Shown here: positions 3,336 through 50,395 of the stretch, one piece after another
Layout: every line of letters begins with the position of its first letter
Position numbering within the stretch: position 1 is the stretch's first letter
Assembly: GCA_944320355.1 (NCBI GenBank)
Contig: CALUHC010000039.1
Coordinates: 1-64,000, forward strand
Length of the DNA: 64,000 nt
Source: an uncultured Prevotella sp.
GTDB taxonomy: Bacteria; Bacteroidota; Bacteroidia; Bacteroidales; Bacteroidaceae
Direction: 5' to 3'
The notes under the pieces: generated by a model
Told to the model about the DNA's origin: nothing
What the model saw: only the letters and a program-made list of their open reading frames with translations
Database searches by the model: none
Position numbers and translations under genes: made by a program

Positions 3336-4346
3336 CTATTTTATCTTTTCCGCCGCGGCCTCTTGGCTGTGCCTGAGGGCTTCGCTTTGCCTCTCGTCGC
3401 GCTTCCGCTTGCGCCACAGCTGCCACGAGTTGAACAGGTTCTGCCATATTATGTAAGTGCCGGGAGCCACGGCGAGCACCGGCGAGAGGTAGGTGTACGA
3501 CACCCAGATGCCGAAGATGGTGTTCTTCTGCCCCAGCCCCTGCCCCCCGCCTATGCGCTCGCCGTAGCGCGCCCCGATGCCCTTGCCGAGGGCGAACTGC
3601 AGGGCGCAGGCCGCAAGGCTGACCACAGAGAGCAGCCACTTGATGTGGGCGCCCACCGGGCTGTCGGCGAGGAAGCGGCACGTCTGCCCCACGGAGAGCA
3701 CCAGGCCGAACCCCCACAGGTAGAAGGCAAGGTCGCGGCAGCCGGCCACCACCCGCGCGTGGGCCTTGGGAAAGAACTCGCGCAGGCCCCAGGCCAGCAG
3801 GAAAGGGCAGATGAGCAGCGGGAACACCCGCCGCAGGATGGTGAGAAACTGGCTGAGGAAAGGGGCGTCGGCGCGGCTCTCCACGAGCGGGAACACGAGC
3901 GGAATGATGATCGCCGCCGCGAGGTTGCTCAGTATGGTGTAGGTGGTCAGCGTGGTCTCGCTGCCGCCCAGCTTGCCCGTGATGACCGCCGCCGCGCCCG
4001 CCGTGGGGCACACGAGGCATATCATGAGCCCCTCGGGGAGCAGGGCGTGGCCCGACGCCGGCGCGAAGTGCAGGATGAGGGCTATGGCGAGGCACGACAG
4101 CAGCTGGAAGGCCACGAGCCATGCGTGCCACGGCGTGACGCGCATGAGGCGCGGGTCCACCTTGCAGAAGGTTGCGAACAGCATCACAAACAGCACTGTG
4201 GGCATCAGCGCCGACGACGCTTCGGCCGCAGCCGGCTTCAGCGGCGCGAGCCAGTGCACGTAGTGGAAGGCCAGGAAGCCCAGCAGGCCGCAGGCCATGC
4301 CTATGGGCAGCGTCCAGTTTTTCAGTATCTTTGTCAGTTCGTTCAT
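3336..4346 (-). CDS. BASS-like (bile acid:sodium symporter family) membrane transporter
   Basis: 336 residues from the ATG at 4346 (a GTG two codons earlier is possible). About nine or ten hydrophobic helices. The conserved stretches CLVCPTAGAAAVITGKLGG (near residue 120) and GQKNTIFGIWVSYTYLSP (near 285) are typical of the two inverted halves of BASS-type carriers, where they line the ion and substrate sites. The C-terminus is short, basic and cytoplasmic. The substrate is not predictable; homologues in Bacteroidota are usually annotated only as transporters. Monocistronic, with its own -7 box at 4373-4380. Confidence 0.75.
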   Translation of the reverse strand: MNELTKILKNWTLPIGMACGLLGFLAFHYVHWLAPLKPAAAEASSALMPTVLFVMLFATFCKVDPRLMRVTPWHAWLVAFQLLSCLAIALILHFAPASGHALLPEGLMICLVCPTAGAAAVITGKLGGSETTLTTYTILSNLAAAIIIPLVFPLVESRADAPFLSQFLTILRRVFPLLICPFLLAWGLREFFPKAHARVVAGCRDLAFYLWGFGLVLSVGQTCRFLADSPVGAHIKWLLSVVSLAACALQFALGKGIGARYGERIGGGQGLGQKNTIFGIWVSYTYLSPVLAVAPGTYIIWQNLFNSWQLWRKRKRDERQSEALRHSQEAAAEKIK

Positions 4347-6366: not shown

Positions 6367-6607
6367 GGGCGCGCCAATGGGGTGCGCCGTGGGGCGAGAA
6401 GGGTCTCGCAAGGTTAACAAATGTAAACAAAACAGCGGCTGCTGCACGGCAAACATTTCCGAAATGTTGACAAACAGAACCAGCGAAACAGAGCGGCGCG
6501 CCCCCTCGGCCGGGGCTTCGCTACCGTGATTGTTGCGCCGCGGACTGCGTTTCCTGCCACAATGCGGGGCAGAACGGCCTCTTTTACCTTCTTCCCGTTC
6601 TCCCAAA

Positions 6608-6695
6608 CGCACCGCTTCGCCTTGCAAAACGGCACATATCGCAGCGCAAAACGACCCGTTTCACCTTGCAAGACAGCACGTTTTGCAATCCCGTT
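6608..6695. repeat. Family A palindromic array, copy 1
   Basis: Short palindrome-like units (AAAACGGCAC..., AAAACGACCCGTTT, AGACAGCACGTTTT) recur at about 21-22 bp. The 150 bp to the right (6700-6870) resemble 58085-58250, which follows copy 8, so the two share a longer element. No gene between 6294 and 7402. Confidence 0.65.
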
Positions 6696-23756: not shown

Positions 23757-23902
23757 CTGTAACTAATTGACTGTCAGTGGGGTTGCAAAATGTGCCGTTT
23801 TGGCTTGCGAGACGGCACGTTTCAGCTTGCGAAACGGGTCGTTTCATCGCGCAAAACGGCGCGTTTTGCGCGATGAAACGGCAGGCTTTGATTTTTGATA
23901 CG
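23757..23902 (-). repeat. Family A palindromic array, copy 3
   Basis: Five units: AAAATGTGCCGTTTT, GAGACGGCACGTTTC, GAAACGGGTCGTTTC, AAAACGGCGCGTTTTG and a closing GATGAAACGGC. The outer flanks (TAACTAATTGACTGTCAG; GGCTTTGATTTTTGA) match, inverted, those of copy 6 at 46839-46980. Confidence 0.75.
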
Positions 23903-30990: not shown

Positions 30991-31103
30991 CTGCGATATG
31001 TGCCGTTTCGCACTGCGAAACGCGCCGTTTTGGGCGATGAAACGTGCCGTTTTGCAAGCCAAAACGGGTCGTTTCGTAACGTGTTGAGCGTCAGGTGGTT
31101 GCG
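30991..31103 (+). repeat. Family A palindromic array, copy 4
   Basis: Units GATATGTGCCGTTTCG, GAAACGCGCCGTTTTGG, GAAACGTGCCGTTTTGC and AAAACGGGTCGTTTCG, then a flank GTGTTGAGCGTCAGGTGGTT that matches copy 5 (37941-37960). Confidence 0.75.
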
Positions 31104-31421: not shown

Positions 31422-32531
31422 TCATTTTGTTATGCTTATAGCGGCCCGGTTGCGGTCGTTCTCGGCGAACGGCTGCACGCGCGAGCCCTTGCTGTCGGTT
31501 GTTATCCTCGCCGGGTCTATGCCGTGGCGCTTCTCCAGCATCCCGGCCACGGCCTTGGCCCTCAGCGCCGATATCCGGTCGTTCACGGCGTCGGTGCCGG
31601 TCTGCGCGTCGGCATATCCCGTTATGGTCACCTTGGCGTCGGGGTTGGCCTTCAGGTAGTCGGCCAGCTCGGCCACCTTGGCGGCCTCGGCCTCAGATAT
31701 CTCGGCCGAGTTTATCCTGAAGAACACGTCGCGGCGCATCTCCTCGGGCTGCGGCTTGGGTGCCGGCTCGGCCTTGGGCTCGGGCTTCTCGTCCACCACG
31801 GGCGGTGCGGGGGCCGGAGCCTCCTGCGCCGGCACGGGCGCCGGCACGCGCTTGCGGTGCGTCTTGCCGAGGTTTATCTTTATGCCTGCCAGGGCGTTGA
31901 AATACCAGTCGGGCTGGCCGGCGTCCTTGGAGTTGTACTTGTCGGAGGTCACGTTGGCGTTGCCCTCGATGCCTATCGAGACGGCGTCCGACAGGCGGAA
32001 GTCCACGCCTATGCCGGCGCGGCCCACGGGCCTGGCCTTGGTGCCCTCCCAGAGGTATGCCATCCGGTATCCCTGGCGGTCTATGTCGGCGGCCTCGTCG
32101 TTGCCGAAGCCGATGTTGACCCCACCGCCCACGAAGGCGGTCACGCCCACCACGCGGCGCGGGTTGAACCCGCCGATGGCGTCAGTGAGGCTGAACACCA
32201 CGTCTACGGCCGGGGCCACGTAGTTGTACTTGTATGTTATGTTCCTCGCCGGGCCGTCGGCCGTGTATCCGTTGAATCCCCCGCGGCTCTGCCACGCGCC
32301 CACAGAGAGCCTCGCCCCGAGCCACGGCAGGAACCTGTATCCGCCGGCCACCTGCACCGCCGGCGAGATGAGGTCGCCGAAGGCGGCCTCGCCGAGTGTG
32401 TACTGCGCGCCTCCCTGCACCTGCAGGTAAGCGTGCGGGCGGAACTCATAGCCCGCCTCCTGTTGCTGTTGGGCCGTTGCCGTGAGCGACATTGCCATCG
32501 CCGCGGCAACCAGTGTATGTCTCTTTCTCAT
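31422..32531 (-). CDS. OmpA-family outer-membrane protein
   Basis: 369 residues from ATG 32531. Signal peptide 1-20. Residues 25-230 form an eight-strand-like beta barrel (alternating hydrophobic and aromatic strands). A Pro/Ala/Glu linker spans about 235-265. The OmpA peptidoglycan-binding domain covers about 268-369: FFRINSAEISEAEAAKVAEL, VTITGYADAQTGTDAVNDRIS, then the R-A and N-R positions (SKGSRVQPFAENDRNRAAIS). It tethers the outer membrane to the wall. Lies 20 bp after the small lipoprotein gene, probably in one unit. Confidence 0.9.
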   Translation of the reverse strand: MRKRHTLVAAAMAMSLTATAQQQQEAGYEFRPHAYLQVQGGAQYTLGEAAFGDLISPAVQVAGGYRFLPWLGARLSVGAWQSRGGFNGYTADGPARNITYKYNYVAPAVDVVFSLTDAIGGFNPRRVVGVTAFVGGGVNIGFGNDEAADIDRQGYRMAYLWEGTKARPVGRAGIGVDFRLSDAVSIGIEGNANVTSDKYNSKDAGQPDWYFNALAGIKINLGKTHRKRVPAPVPAQEAPAPAPPVVDEKPEPKAEPAPKPQPEEMRRDVFFRINSAEISEAEAAKVAELADYLKANPDAKVTITGYADAQTGTDAVNDRISALRAKAVAGMLEKRHGIDPARITTDSKGSRVQPFAENDRNRAAISITK

Positions 32532-32551
32532 AGTCCAAGTACTTTTAAATG

Positions 32552-33031
32552 TCATTTCACCTTTGATTTGTCAGAGAGTTCCAGATACCACTGCGAGCCG
32601 ATGCGTTGCGGTGCGAACGTCACGCGGATGGTGTTCTGTATGCTGTCGCGAGGGTCTTTCTTGAAGAATTCAATGGCGTATGCCACCGTGACGCGGTTTG
32701 CGTTGACAAACTCCATGTCCGCCACGCGGTAACTCAGCACGGGAAATGTCTTTTGCTGGGCGCGTATCCGCTGCTCTGTCGCCTCGGACAACGGCATCAC
32801 GCTGTCGTCCACAATGGTGCGGAGCATGGCCGTGGCCTTGTCGTATTCCTTGTTCTTCACGCACTCAAGGTATTCGGCGGTGAGCCTCAGCACCTCCGTG
32901 GTGTCTGCTTTCACGAATGTCGGTATGGTGTCCTTGTGCTTTCCGCTGTCTGACGAGCAGCCCGAGCACGCCCCGAACCCTATCGCCGCGGCCACGAGTA
33001 TCAGCGCTGTTATTACGTAATTCTTCATCAT
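32552..33031 (-). CDS. Small lipoprotein, DUF4878-like
   Basis: About 159 residues from the ATG at 33031 or 33028. The signal peptide ends at IGFGAC (lipobox Cys about residue 21-22), then SGCSSDSGKHKD. A mature domain of about 120 residues is of the NTF2-like fold seen in DUF4878: EVLRLTAEYLECVKNKEYDKA helix, and a final YLELSDKSK strand. The function is unknown. Between the giant coiled-coil lipoprotein gene and the OmpA-family gene. Confidence 0.6.
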   Translation of the reverse strand: MMKNYVITALILVAAAIGFGACSGCSSDSGKHKDTIPTFVKADTTEVLRLTAEYLECVKNKEYDKATAMLRTIVDDSVMPLSEATEQRIRAQQKTFPVLSYRVADMEFVNANRVTVAYAIEFFKKDPRDSIQNTIRVTFAPQRIGSQWYLELSDKSKVK

Positions 33032-36100: not shown

Positions 36101-37304
36101 TCTGGCTCTGCACGGTCTCAATCCTCGTGTCGTGGAGCTTCAGCGTGCTGTTGATGTCCTCAATCTGGCCTGCTATCACGCCGATCCGTGCGGTCAGCGT
36201 GGTCATGTTGCTCTCGATGGCCTCCTGTGCTGTGGCCAGATCCTCCTCCAGCTTCTTGATGCTCTCGCTCACGCCGGCATTGGTGGTCTCCTGGTTCTTC
36301 AGTGCCTCGTTGATGCTGCTGATGGTTTTCTCGGCTGTCGTGATGCGGATGACGGCGGCGGCAAGGTCGCCCTTCACTTCTTCGATGTCAGCTCCGAGTG
36401 CAGACTTCAGCGCGGCCACCTCGGTGTCGGTGTAGGCCTTGGCTGCGGTGAGGTTGGCCTCGCAGGCTGCCTGCATCTTCGTCAGCTGCTCTTGCAGGGC
36501 CAGCAGGTCGTTGGTGTTTTTGGTTATCTTCTCTGCCAGCTCGGTGTCAGTGGCCTGCAGAGCCTCGATGGAGGTGGTGTTGGCAGCTATGAGGGCGTTG
36601 ACCTCGGCCAGCTTGCCGTCCACCTCGGCCTTGTTGGCGGCCACGGTCTCTATAACTCCGTCAACCTTCTCGCCGAGGACTGATATCTGTCCGTCGAGTT
36701 CCTCCTTCACGGTGGTGAGGTTGGTCACGAGCTGTGCCAGCTGCTCGGCGTTCTGGTTGGCCGTGTTCTGTGCTGCCTCAGCAGCCTGCTGTGCTGTGGT
36801 GGCCATGTTCTTGGCTGTCTCAATCTCGCCGTTGGCGGTGTTGATGGCGGTCTGCAGGGCGTTGTCTGCGTCAAGCAGGGCTGCTATCTGCTGCTCCTGC
36901 GTGGCCACCTGCCCGTCGAGTGCGGCCAGCTTTGTGTTGGCGTCGTCGATTCCGGCCTGCAGTGTTGCCTGCGCGGCGGCTATCTCCTGGCGTGCTGCCT
37001 CTATGGCAGCGGCCTGTGCGGCGGCAGCCTGCTGGTCAGTGTAGGTCTTGGCGGCTGCCAGATCTGCCTGAGCCTGCGTGAGCGCCTCCTGAAGAGTAGC
37101 GTCCTGACTCTTCAGAGCGTTGATCTCGGTGGTGAGGTTGCTCACCTTCTCGTTGACCAGCTCTTCGAGAGTAGACGCATTAGTTGTGATTTGTCCCTGC
37201 AGGCCATTGATGTCGTCATCGTAGTCCTTGCAAGAAACAAACGTGCTTGTCGAAGCCGCAACAAGGGCTCCGAAAAGCAGTGCACTAATAAACTTCTTTC
37301 TCAT
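33126..37304 (-). CDS. Giant coiled-coil surface lipoprotein
   Basis: 1392 residues. The signal peptide ends at the lipobox STFVSC (Cys25) and is followed by KDYDDDIN, an acidic stretch right after the Cys, as in lipoproteins shown to the outside by Bacteroidota. Residues about 35-600 are heptad-rich coiled coil, heavy in Ala, Gln, Glu, Leu, Thr and Asn with few aromatics. Residues 610-1392 are a globular, aromatic- and Asp-rich region with bacterial-Ig-like strands near the end (TLKDITAGGSSSTSFSKTI). No known catalytic motif. A stalk with a distal head, perhaps an adhesin or S-layer-like protein, is inference. The only consensus promoter nearby points away and lies between inverted repeats. 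Confidence 0.75.
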   Translation of the reverse strand: MRKKFISALLFGALVAASTSTFVSCKDYDDDINGLQGQITTNASTLEELVNEKVSNLTTEINALKSQDATLQEALTQAQADLAAAKTYTDQQAAAAQAAAIEAARQEIAAAQATLQAGIDDANTKLAALDGQVATQEQQIAALLDADNALQTAINTANGEIETAKNMATTAQQAAEAAQNTANQNAEQLAQLVTNLTTVKEELDGQISVLGEKVDGVIETVAANKAEVDGKLAEVNALIAANTTSIEALQATDTELAEKITKNTNDLLALQEQLTKMQAACEANLTAAKAYTDTEVAALKSALGADIEEVKGDLAAAVIRITTAEKTISSINEALKNQETTNAGVSESIKKLEEDLATAQEAIESNMTTLTARIGVIAGQIEDINSTLKLHDTRIETVQSQTDALRTDLDALQGTVDEAKENLAKLTQEFNAYVSSNDAALAKLKKDLTDAYTQAISAQGEALRGEINEVNTELQSKIDALDGKLTGEGGINDQLDDIRTQIGLITGDDGTVGLIDEKINAANSRIDNVEQTIATLRSDIESQLADVTNEIGIIWTQLAINHQKMTNTLTALDSELARLAGLSKQLKSLVFCPTTYVDGIECIKFATLKYTDWGTSEADWKADAAKAGNANYSIDNKELEVEYFANPRGVLKSDIEELAFVYNNATNDITRAVNPEAPISVVEDGWDFVTNENGAYVLKLKLQKNGTESLGDGKENFTIVALKATLDDKYLTDEEKANGEKAEVYSDWARVYETSVTPRIHNELAIDKSGKLESDEDAHFWSYSEVYNNSDDKTQLPTEFNTKHIAIEKYYEEELDLLDLVMVCAKEDHVQYLEEEYGLDYQFNIMDYTLENEGQTHDATNQKYFGKLLEDGHTLVSTARNGEEKNRDAIGRQPMIQVVLKDVRDPENPKVVDVRYFKVKWVDKTAIEEYPEDLKDFTDDYVCGNEINNIIGEEELNALYAWKNLSRDEFHNSYTLDTKLYATLEDAKKAQNSTPALGSIKDLADDEGHGQTHNLQWTINTTANEATQEDYERGYMERDAYGVYQSTTNANSRIIFHVTLRLNIAKMALADGLGHDQTMWSSNGERNINPQLETDATYGNASHGGYETTMILGSLLKGYINDGKTPASVDELVNFGDDVQFVIDGDRLDEVAAATGTNVLDWTLSADSKHLSYNGVEAAFIASNDRVQLWESRLEKPNTGSVPSEGAKLLVGKCVPVKLVDEWCNLTEVFEEHNVRFLTPLAFNNPTVPVTLKDITAGGSSSTSFSKTIKITEAFTTNKRTVYVNGGTSNEELMKWYGVPETPTYAIGEAKTNIQKDGSIGTACNVLLSDIQNSDGTPKYIVSVDATESKVTFSNMSGNAIGQSFKIEIPVVMETKWQTLTAKIVVTVEPAI

Positions 37305-37368
37305 ACGATAAATTATTAATTAAAAAATAGACACAATTGCTTCGATTTCTATGCCTCTGCCCGGTCTC

Positions 37369-37387
37369 TCTCTTGTTAAGAGACGGA
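37369..37387 (-). repeat. Inverted repeat, gene-proximal copy (IR-L)
   Basis: The complement of 37369-37387 reads TCCGTCTCTTAACAAGAGA, identical over 19 bp to 37546-37564 on the plus strand. IR-L itself sits in a GC-rich hairpin (CCGGTC ... GACCGG). Confidence 0.9.
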
Positions 37388-37504
37388 CCGGGGCGTATTT
37401 TACACATTATATATATGATTGTGTCTGTCACTACGAAAACGGACCGTTTTGTCGAACATTTGTTTGAATATTTTCAACAACGGCGAAAAAAATGTTTTAA
37501 AATG

Positions 37505-37536
37505 TTTGCTTGTTTACTGAATAATCCATATCTTTG
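37505..37536 (+). promoter_or_regulatory. Promoter inside the inverted-repeat segment, pointing away from the lipoprotein gene
   Basis: TTTG (37505-37508), 20-bp spacer, TATCTTTG (37529-37536). The start of transcription would fall at the edge of IR-R. Downstream on this strand there is no convincing gene, only a doubtful 74-codon frame from ATG 37580. Confidence 0.7.
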
Positions 37537-37545
37537 CATCGTCAA

Positions 37546-37564
37546 TCCGTCTCTTAACAAGAGA
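37546..37564 (+). repeat. Inverted repeat, gene-distal copy (IR-R)
   Basis: TCCGTCTCTTAACAAGAGA. Together with the following CGGA it forms a self-complementary site (CCGTCTCTT-AAC-AAGAGACGG). 158 bp separate it from IR-L. Confidence 0.9.
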
Positions 37565-37796
37565 CGGATTGCTTGTATTATGGTTTCCCTTATCTTTGTT
37601 CTTGCATTGCCTGTGGCTTTGGCGCGGTGTGTCGTGGTGGCTGCCTGCGCGTTCCGCGGCCTCGTCACCGGCTCTCCCCGGCGTGCGGGCTGTATGGCAG
37701 GCTCTGCCAGGCCGGCACAATCCTCGGCTCGCCTTTTGTCCTGCGGGGCTGCCTTTGCGGAGGTGGTCATACGCATACTGCCATGCTTGCAGATGT

Positions 37797-37962
37797 GCAA
37801 CTAACGACGGCGGCTGTGTCCTTGATATCACGTATGTGTCATGTCGCGCCACGAAACGGCCCGTTTTGCGCTGCGATATGGCCCGTTTCAGCCGCCAAAA
37901 CAGCCCGTTTCGGAAGCCGAAACGGCTCGTTTCGCAACACGTTGAGCATCAGGTGGTTAGCG
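37797..37962 (+). repeat. Family A palindromic array, copy 5
   Basis: Left flank GCAACTAACGACGGC ... CATGTCGCGCC. Then GAAACGGCCCGTTTTGC, GATATGGCCCGTTTCAGCC, AAAACAGCCCGTTTCGG and GAAACGGCTCGTTTCGC. Right flank AACACGTTGAGCATCAGGTG. The left flank is shared, inverted, with copy 7. Confidence 0.75.
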
Positions 37963-38350: not shown

Positions 38351-38520
38351 GAAGTTGTTTTGATTTTATCAACCGTCGGGTTGGGGTGGATTTTCGAGGC
38401 ATAATTGTCTGCTTGCTGAGGAGCATTTTTCGCTTCGCTCAACAACACGTGCGGGCTATGTGACGAAGCAAACGGGCGAATATGACCGAAAAGACACTCA
38501 AGGCGACGGGGATAAAAGAC
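38351..38520 (+). repeat. Family D repeat, copy 2
   Basis: GAAGTTGTTTTGATTTTATC ... GGATTTTCGAGG ... GCTGAGGAGCAT ... GAAGCAAACGGGCGAATATG aligns with the reverse complement of 4970-5115. Confidence 0.7.
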
Positions 38521-46838: not shown

Positions 46839-46980
46839 GTCAAAAATCAAAGGCTGGCGTTTGACCGTGCGAAACGGGCCGTTTTGCACGATGAAACGGG
46901 CCGTTTCGGGAGCCAAAATGGCACATTTCGGAGCCTAAAACGGCACGTTTTGCAACCCCGCTGATTGTCAATGGGTTACG
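46839..46980 (+). repeat. Family A palindromic array, copy 6 (best preserved)
   Basis: Four units at 21-22 bp: GAAACGGGCCGTTTTGC, GAAACGGGCCGTTTCGG, AAAATGGCACATTTCGG, AAAACGGCACGTTTTGC. Flanks TCAAAAATCAAAGGCTGGC on the left and AACCCCGCTGATTGTCAATG on the right. The remainder of 46564-47198 has no gene; TATCTTTG at about 46773 is an isolated -7-like word. Confidence 0.85.
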
Positions 46981-50212: not shown

Positions 50213-50395
50213 TCGTTTGATATTCAATGAGTTGCAAAACGGGCCGTTTCGCATTCTGAAACGTGCCGTCTTGGCGGCTGAAACAGGCCATATCGCAGCG
50301 CGAAACGCGCCGTTTCGAGGCGCGATATGGCACACACGGGAAATCAAGAAAACGGCTGCTGTCTTTAGTTGCATATTTGCAAGTATGGCCAGATG
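50213..50395 (-). repeat. Family A palindromic array, copy 7
   Basis: AAAACGGGCCGTTTCGC, GAAACGTGCCGTCTTGG, GAAACAGGCCATATCGC, GAAACGCGCCGTTTCG, then GCGATATGGCACACACGGG, a TCAAGAAAACGGCTGCTG stretch and TTTAGTTGCA. That right flank is the left flank of copy 5 inverted. Confidence 0.75.

Follow-up and report, generated by a model that had tools for sequence, protein, structure and literature searches.

The region upstream of a gene for a 1392-residue lipoprotein in an uncultured Prevotella sp. very probably (probability roughly 0.86) carries an invertible promoter, assembled in the OFF orientation, that would be flipped by a tyrosine recombinase on behalf of an S-layer-like operon. The best candidate for the enzyme is a 403-aa protein encoded on another contig, C11. 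The window, that is, the whole stretch of 64,000 nucleotides analysed, lies on contig C39 of a genome assembly of 2.48 Mb in 42 contigs that is 80% complete. A sequence-only reading had already described the region as an invertible promoter in the OFF state served by a recombinase acting in trans, and this description is supported by sister segments in the same genome, by matched centres within site pairs, by flipped homologues and by nine loci carrying related lipoprotein genes.

Repeat pair and promoter

The anatomy of the locus was observed directly (Table 1). Two 19-bp sequences had been reported as identical, inverted and 158 bp apart, with the near copy 65 bp from the ATG of the lipoprotein gene at position 37304; the coordinates, the identity (19 of 19 positions) and the distance to the gene were all confirmed. 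A chance repeat was ruled out for this pair, with no match expected on the basis of 100 shuffles. Each repeat is itself a quasi-palindrome around a 3-nt centre, with arms of 13 bp (100%) at the far site and of 15 bp (87%) at the near site, and each thus resembles a complete site rather than a single arm. The core of both is TCTCTT-N3-AAGAGA, which is of recombinase type. Scans of the window for tRNAs and Rfam families gave no match, and a search of viral contigs returned 0 matches for the 19-mer and 0 for the site-pair pattern.

Table 1. Features of the window and of related sites in the same genome.
Feature	Position	Strand	Remarks
Near putative recombination site	37369..37387	-	Core TCTCTTGTTAAGAGA and inner CGGA
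Far putative recombination site	37546..37564	+	Identical to near site, inverted; wider palindrome 37543-37571
Putative invertible segment, 158 bp	37388..37545	none	Between near and far sites
Promoter TTTG-N20-TATCTTTG	37505..37536	+	Directed away from lipoprotein gene (OFF)
Stretch from near site to ATG	37305..37368	-	Last part TTTTTTAATTAATAATTTATCGT common to L109, L116 and L117
Lipoprotein, 1392 aa	33126..37304	-	Signal peptide, lipobox-like C (by eye), coiled-coil-like stretch, conserved C-terminal part
Small lipoprotein, gene 2 of likely operon	32552..33031	-	Listed ORF extends to 33058; Met at 33031 likelier
OmpA-family outer-membrane barrel, gene 3 of likely operon	31422..32555	-	PF00691, PF13505
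AAACGGNNCGTTT arrays	6605-6661, 23788-23866, 31018-31074, 37437-37449, 37854-37932, 46872-46950, 50237-50315		
Candidate tyrosine recombinase, 403 aa	L005:4840-6051, contig C11		PF13102, PF00589, PF17293
Centres of the five inverted pairs	C39 (window), C11, C7, C3, C17		GTT, CAC, GGT, TGC, TGT, respectively

The full promoter that had been placed inside the segment and aimed away from the gene was found at 37505-37536 as described, and its -7 box ends 13 bp short of the far site's 15-bp core. In the accessible parts of two papers (PMC4747536, PMC3090145), TAnnTTTG is given as the -7 box of Bacteroides. No such box faces the lipoprotein gene within the 1200 bp upstream of it, which bears out the absence noted earlier for the segment. 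Recalculation from the position of the box gives a leader of about 85 nt after inversion, in place of the earlier figure of about 75 nt. A second TATCTTTG is present at 37591-37598, just beyond the far repeat and in the same direction as the inner one; the relatives of the lipoprotein locus that were compared have no box at the equivalent position.

Two other kinds of repeat were observed in the window. The palindrome AAACGGNNCGTTT occurs in arrays at 22-bp steps, with 37 strand-matches at up to 1 mismatch against 1.0 expected; a lone copy lies inside the putative invertible segment (37437-37449) and similar copies are found in L005 and L123. These palindromes, at present unexplained, may be REP-like or protein-binding. 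A nearly identical intergenic stretch, cgcttcgctcaacaacacgtgcgggctatgtgacgaagcaaacgggcgaatatgacc, occurs at about 38427-38487 of the window and at about 9190-9250 of L005, and is a dispersed repeat found on two contigs of the genome.

Lipoprotein gene and putative operon

The 1392-residue ORF described as a lipoprotein is present and has a signal peptide followed by a lipobox-like VSCKDYDDD, the lipobox being judged by eye. A long part of the protein is coiled-coil-like, and its C-terminal part is kept in relatives. Searches of Pfam and NCBIfam gave matches of the coiled-coil type only, and a search of PDB sequences gave only weak, coiled-coil-like matches, the best chain having an E-value of 0.067. 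The gene is followed by those for a small lipoprotein and for an OmpA-family protein, the latter matching PF00691 with an E-value of 3.6e-17 and PF13505 slightly below the cut-off. The three genes are likely to form one operon, the product of which, to judge by analogy, is probably an S-layer-like coat. Among nine related loci listed, a barrel-like gene 3' of the lipoprotein gene was also seen in L109, L117, L154 and L155, a Pfam check of these genes covering L109 and L117; the listing shows none for L110, L148, L150 and L151, where the available stretch in part ends.

Sister pairs in the same genome

With at most 1 mismatch allowed, TCTCTTNNNAAGAGA occurs at 13 places in the genome, every one of them matching on both strands; the reversed control gave 5. 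Ten of the 13 make up five inverted pairs and three are single. In every one of the five pairs the centre is identical in inverted register (Table 1). Further copies of the 19-mer, for which a search of the genome had been proposed, are represented by one further pair, on contig C11, that matches the window 19-mer with no more than 2 mismatches. An address code as a selected property does not follow from these pairs: the five centres are all different, as would mostly be the case for five 3-mers drawn at random.

The promoter of the C17 pair is directed at a UpxY gene (103 bits) and that of the C11 pair at a gene with a UpxY match below the cut-off (66 bits, cut-off 100); both promoters face their gene and are thus ON. 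At C7 a UpxY gene (119 bits) lies behind the promoter, which is thus OFF. At C3 the promoter is directed at a gene for a GDSL hydrolase, and its box lies 79 bp from the core as against 12-17 bp in the other four pairs. The UpxY-led operons at C11, C17 and C7 are presumably polysaccharide operons; the sole Pfam match downstream of the UpxY-type genes is a flippase at C7 (MatE, below the cut-off), and the C11 contig ends soon after its gene.

Candidate recombinase

The C11 repeat begins 25 bp past the stop codon of the gene for the 403-aa protein, which matches PF00589 and PF13102 above the cut-offs. Full-length relatives were aligned in 42 rows, some of which repeat the same gene; K279, H352, H374 and Y383 were present in all 42 rows, R351 in 41 and R253 in 40. 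These six residues are presumably the catalytic set of tyrosine recombinases. Genome-wide searches with PF00589 and PF00239 placed no recombinase on contig C39, in agreement with the earlier finding of none in the window. Either a tyrosine or a serine invertase had been envisaged elsewhere in the genome: a candidate for the first was found on C11; no serine invertase was found, PF00239 giving no match at E-values of 0.01 or lower in this genome (80% complete). Mpi is a serine recombinase. The label Mpi-type that had been attached to the presumed enzyme is accordingly unfit, since no serine recombinase was found and the letters of the site differ from the capsule-type repeat GTTCGTTTAA given in the accessible part of PMC12118408.

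Nine further recombinase loci were inspected. A TCTCTT-type pair lies beside the gene in seven of them, six of which are on contigs that apparently also carry segments among the 46 described below; of the other two, L017 has one core right before the contig end and L016 has none. No core, even with 2 mismatches allowed, lies within 1.5 kb of the genes for the three nearest relatives of the C11 protein (62-64%; G088, G522 and G481).

The recombinase gene on contig C23 (L123:4802-6250, minus strand) is accompanied by a different inverted pair, ACAATATGAAGCGGCCAT, at L123:3966-3983 and 4129-4146, with 145 bp between the copies and about 650 bp between the pair and the 3' end of the gene. Within it, TACCTTTG at L123:4114-4121 is directed at the recombinase side; behind it lies a 599-aa ORF with a start that is UpxY-like by eye. 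This pair is probably a sixth switch, in the OFF state and with an enzyme of its own. At L059, L082 and L088 the recombinase beside the segment is split over two or three reading frames; in these loci either the recombinase may be broken or the assembly may be faulty.

Site family in other species

Genomes of 84,980 species, one per species, were scanned for stretches with the core at both ends and the centres left free. The scan yielded 46 stretches, which carry Bacteroidales names except for one from Lachnospiraceae (L054) and two named 'bacterium' (L055 and L078). The centres are identical in inverted register in all 46 segments and comprise 18 different centres; a random match of centres has a probability of 1/64 in each, the 46 loci being partly dependent (L053 and L083 are nearly alike). 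A TAnnTTTG box lies 10-18 nt inside a repeat and is directed outward in 39 of 46 segments, compared with 0.68 expected from shuffles.

The gene neighbourhoods of the segments were likewise observed directly. A relative of the C11 recombinase is encoded 6-405 bp away from 28 of the 46 segments, with the box toward the recombinase side in 18, toward the opposite side in five and no box found in five. When 27 recombinase-linked segments were compared with L077, taking a score of at least 25 as informative, 15 aligned in the same orientation, four aligned only when flipped and eight were too diverged to be informative; below that score, four leaned toward the flipped orientation and one toward the same. 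The four flip-only segments (L065, L068, L079 and L091) showed identities of 0.69-0.72 flipped against 0.56-0.62 unflipped. Inversion has therefore occurred between relatives within the TCTCTT/AAGAGA site family.

The exact 16-bp core was present in 19 of 36 genomes picked for the recombinase (the window's own included), at 43 strand-places as opposed to 5 in the reversed control. In the genus it was present in 27 of 200 genomes, and the total of 56 strand-matches is little above the 30 of the reversed control; a single core is thus near background there and only pairs are telling. Inverted pairs 170-195 bp apart with matched centres were found in G184 (two), G008, G126, G059, G166, G068, G009 and G088, as well as in the window. 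Two genomes use one centre twice, with TCT in L085 and L096 of Segatella baroniae B14 and GGT in L084 and L089 of the metagenome-assembled genome BRZ_RM__bin123, which makes it less certain that the centres keep different switches apart. No text on invertible elements with TCTCTT or AAGAGA was found in open-licence full texts, a body of text to which figures and supplements do not belong.

Several further features of the family were noted. The lengths of the 46 segments cluster near 180, 188 and 200 bp, perhaps through helical phasing. Site cores lie no more than 55 bp from the contig start at G221:C1:3-18, G377:C20:4-19 and G113:C5:39-54, and such contig breaks may result from the presence of both orientations in the sample. 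Among L055, L064, L066, L096 and L085, switches of the TCTCTT type lie near genes for SNF2-type helicases; L055 also has a PLD-like gene, and the helicases of L055 and L066 show sub-cutoff likeness to models of anti-phage helicases. In Segatella baroniae a switch of this type lies near a C5 cytosine methylase gene. Switches near helicase and methylase genes possibly represent phase-variable defence.

Lipoprotein locus in related genomes

Three overlapping sets of genomes, with the window's own counted in each, were searched for relatives of the lipoprotein: the genus set gave 9 of 398, the family set 7 of 399, and a genus set restricted to completeness of 90% or more gave 4 of 277. Seventeen gene copies were examined, including that of the window, of which 16 were usable, L115 being without a start. 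An inverted pair lies just upstream in nine of the 16 (window, L109, L110, L111, L116, L117, L150, L151 and L153); the box of every one of these pairs lies by the far site and is directed away from the gene, as in the OFF state. The independent loci number fewer than nine, because a single genome supplies both L109 and L110 and because L116 is almost the same as L117. Centres are identical within pairs in the seven of these loci that were printed out, and L109, L116 and L117 (clearly) and L110 (weakly) have segments that resemble that of the window and align with it unflipped.

G127 (L112 and L154) has one site, and the 1.5 kb upstream offers no second unless 5 or more mismatches are allowed. 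No inverted pair was found at six loci (L148, L149, L152, L113, L114 and L161, the search at L161 taking in the core only). A promoter box facing the gene lies within 350 bp at three of these six, namely TACCTTTG at -162, -159 and -329 in L148, L149 and L152, respectively; in L113, L114 and L161 gene-facing boxes occur only at -528 or beyond.

A recombinase relative (E <1e-30) was present in all six site-bearing genomes tested (G481, G163, G127, G522, G088 and G267), of which G127 has a single site. Among five site-less genomes tested it was absent from G169, G552, G067 and G305 and present in G296; the completeness of G169, G552 and G067, at 63-84%, could account for the missing recombinase, and G067 is without the start of the lipoprotein gene. 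The count leaves out G593, G677, G767 and G806. Co-occurrence of sites and recombinase is not strict, G296 being the exception. In G127 and G163 one recombinase gene follows that for the lipoprotein at a distance of 2-3 kb.

Proposed mechanism and alternative explanations

A tyrosine recombinase, for which the C11 protein is the candidate, would bind the TCTCTT and AAGAGA arms of both sites, join the sites and exchange strands across the 3-nt centre, a reaction for which tyrosine recombinases would require the centre to be matched within a pair. The segment would thereby invert and the promoter come to adjoin the near site, from where it is predicted to transcribe the genes for the giant lipoprotein, the small lipoprotein and the OmpA-type barrel. 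The assembly shows the OFF form at the window locus; flipping there, the resulting expression and the S-layer function of the product are predicted from the features described above. The C11 enzyme would probably also turn four further segments, three of them before UpxY-type genes.

The same features could belong to a fixed regulatory region, in which the quasi-palindromes serve as hairpins or protein-binding sites (terminator, attenuator or operator), the promoter serves the other side and no inversion takes place. Each repeat alone is a strong palindrome, and the single orientation at nine of nine lipoprotein loci is also what would be expected of a segment that never flips. For a hairpin, however, it is immaterial whether its loop matches that of another one 160 bp off, whereas the centres do match in 46 of 46 pairs, and flipped homologues do occur in the site family. 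Past the promoter, moreover, the plus strand offers nothing but short ORFs with TTG starts (139 and 168 aa) before an rpmH-like gene (by eye) at about 39067, beyond the segment on the far side, and the far-side neighbours vary among the relatives listed. A fixed region is on these grounds improbable. Still less credible, and barely worth retaining, is a small MITE-like element with inverted ends that carries a promoter by accident: the short inverted ends and the overall size of about 200 bp would suit it, but the position upstream of related genes is constant in nine loci, the ends have a pair-specific centre in common and the promoter box lies at a near-fixed distance from one end.

An invertible promoter could also be turned by an enzyme other than the C11 protein, whether that encoded on C23 or C37 or one from the fifth of the genome that the assembly lacks. 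The genome encodes five PF00589 proteins, that of C11 and four others, and the C11 gene is unlinked to the window; G481 has eight relatives of the recombinase, and the closest relatives of the C11 protein are without an adjoining site. Against this, among C11, C23 and C37 a TCTCTT-type pair lies beside the C11 gene only, and that pair is the one that comes within 2 mismatches of the window 19-mer. The C23 gene has its own, different 18-bp pair and so probably serves its own switch, and the C32 and C9 proteins, at 312-316 aa, would correspond in size to XerC/XerD. Another enzyme is accordingly unlikely, though less so than the absence of inversion, and the C11 protein is preferred as the putative enzyme for the window segment.

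A bolder and distinctly tentative proposal, which we consider doubtful, is that one tyrosine invertase runs a surface regulon of five promoters (three UpxY-led operons, the GDSL hydrolase and the S-layer-like operon), with the 3-nt centre as a private address for each switch and the S-layer switch resting OFF. If true, the ends of one switch would recombine together and not with those of another, and one enzyme could serve many switches in a cell without large rearrangements.

An invertible promoter as preferred here would give uncultured Prevotella-type relatives a predicted phase-variable S-layer-like coat with a readable switch, and would extend to them a system known from Bacteroides. The site code of fixed arms with a free 3-nt centre matched within each pair would allow promoters served by the same enzyme to be found from sequence.

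Comparison with known invertible systems

Invertible elements of this kind are already known; what the present case adds is this member, the site family and the regularity of fixed arms with a free, pair-matched centre. The comparisons below hold as far as the accessible portions of the cited papers extend. The nearest counterpart in layout is the BT1927/BT1926 S-layer locus of Bacteroides thetaiotaomicron, described together with seven related loci (PMC12548429, PMC12578637, PMC12118408). That locus is mostly OFF, with about 1 in 1,000 cells ON in rich medium (PMC12548429), and BT1926 is the putative anchor barrel of BT1927 (PMC12578637). Both systems have a promoter bounded by inverted repeats and a surface lipoprotein gene with a barrel or OmpA-family gene alongside; the lipoproteins are likened by gene order, not by sequence homology. 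A 19-bp repeat, CCGTTACCTABVRAGTAAC, is given for the S-layer/OmpA loci and a nearly identical one for four capsule operons with tyrosine invertases (PMC12118408), so that sharing of a repeat with capsule operons, or here with presumed polysaccharide operons, is a further likeness. The repeat here is instead TCCGTCTCTTNNNAAGAGACGGA, and whereas a site-specific integrase lies near the BT1927 locus, the candidate recombinase of the present genome is unlinked.

Tsr19 (BF2766) of Bacteroides fragilis, with the promoters IVp-I and IVp-II (PMC4747536, PMC3090145), offers a parallel for the proposed enzyme. There one tyrosine recombinase acts on a local polysaccharide promoter, which is mostly OFF, and on a distant one before a cluster that includes a lipoprotein gene. 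Two promoters are served in that system as against up to five here, and the likeness is one of description, not of recombinase sequence; no B. fragilis is among the 46 core-pair segments. The Mpi regulon of B. fragilis comprises seven polysaccharide promoters (PMC4747536) and shares with the proposed regulon the use of one enzyme for many promoters and the UpxY-type first genes, unlike it in having a serine enzyme, for which this 80%-complete genome gave no PF00239 match. By description, rather than by the letters of the motif, the present family also resembles the inverton groups of gut Bacteroidota, in which promoter families defined by repeat motif are tied to groups of tyrosine invertases (PMC11892184).
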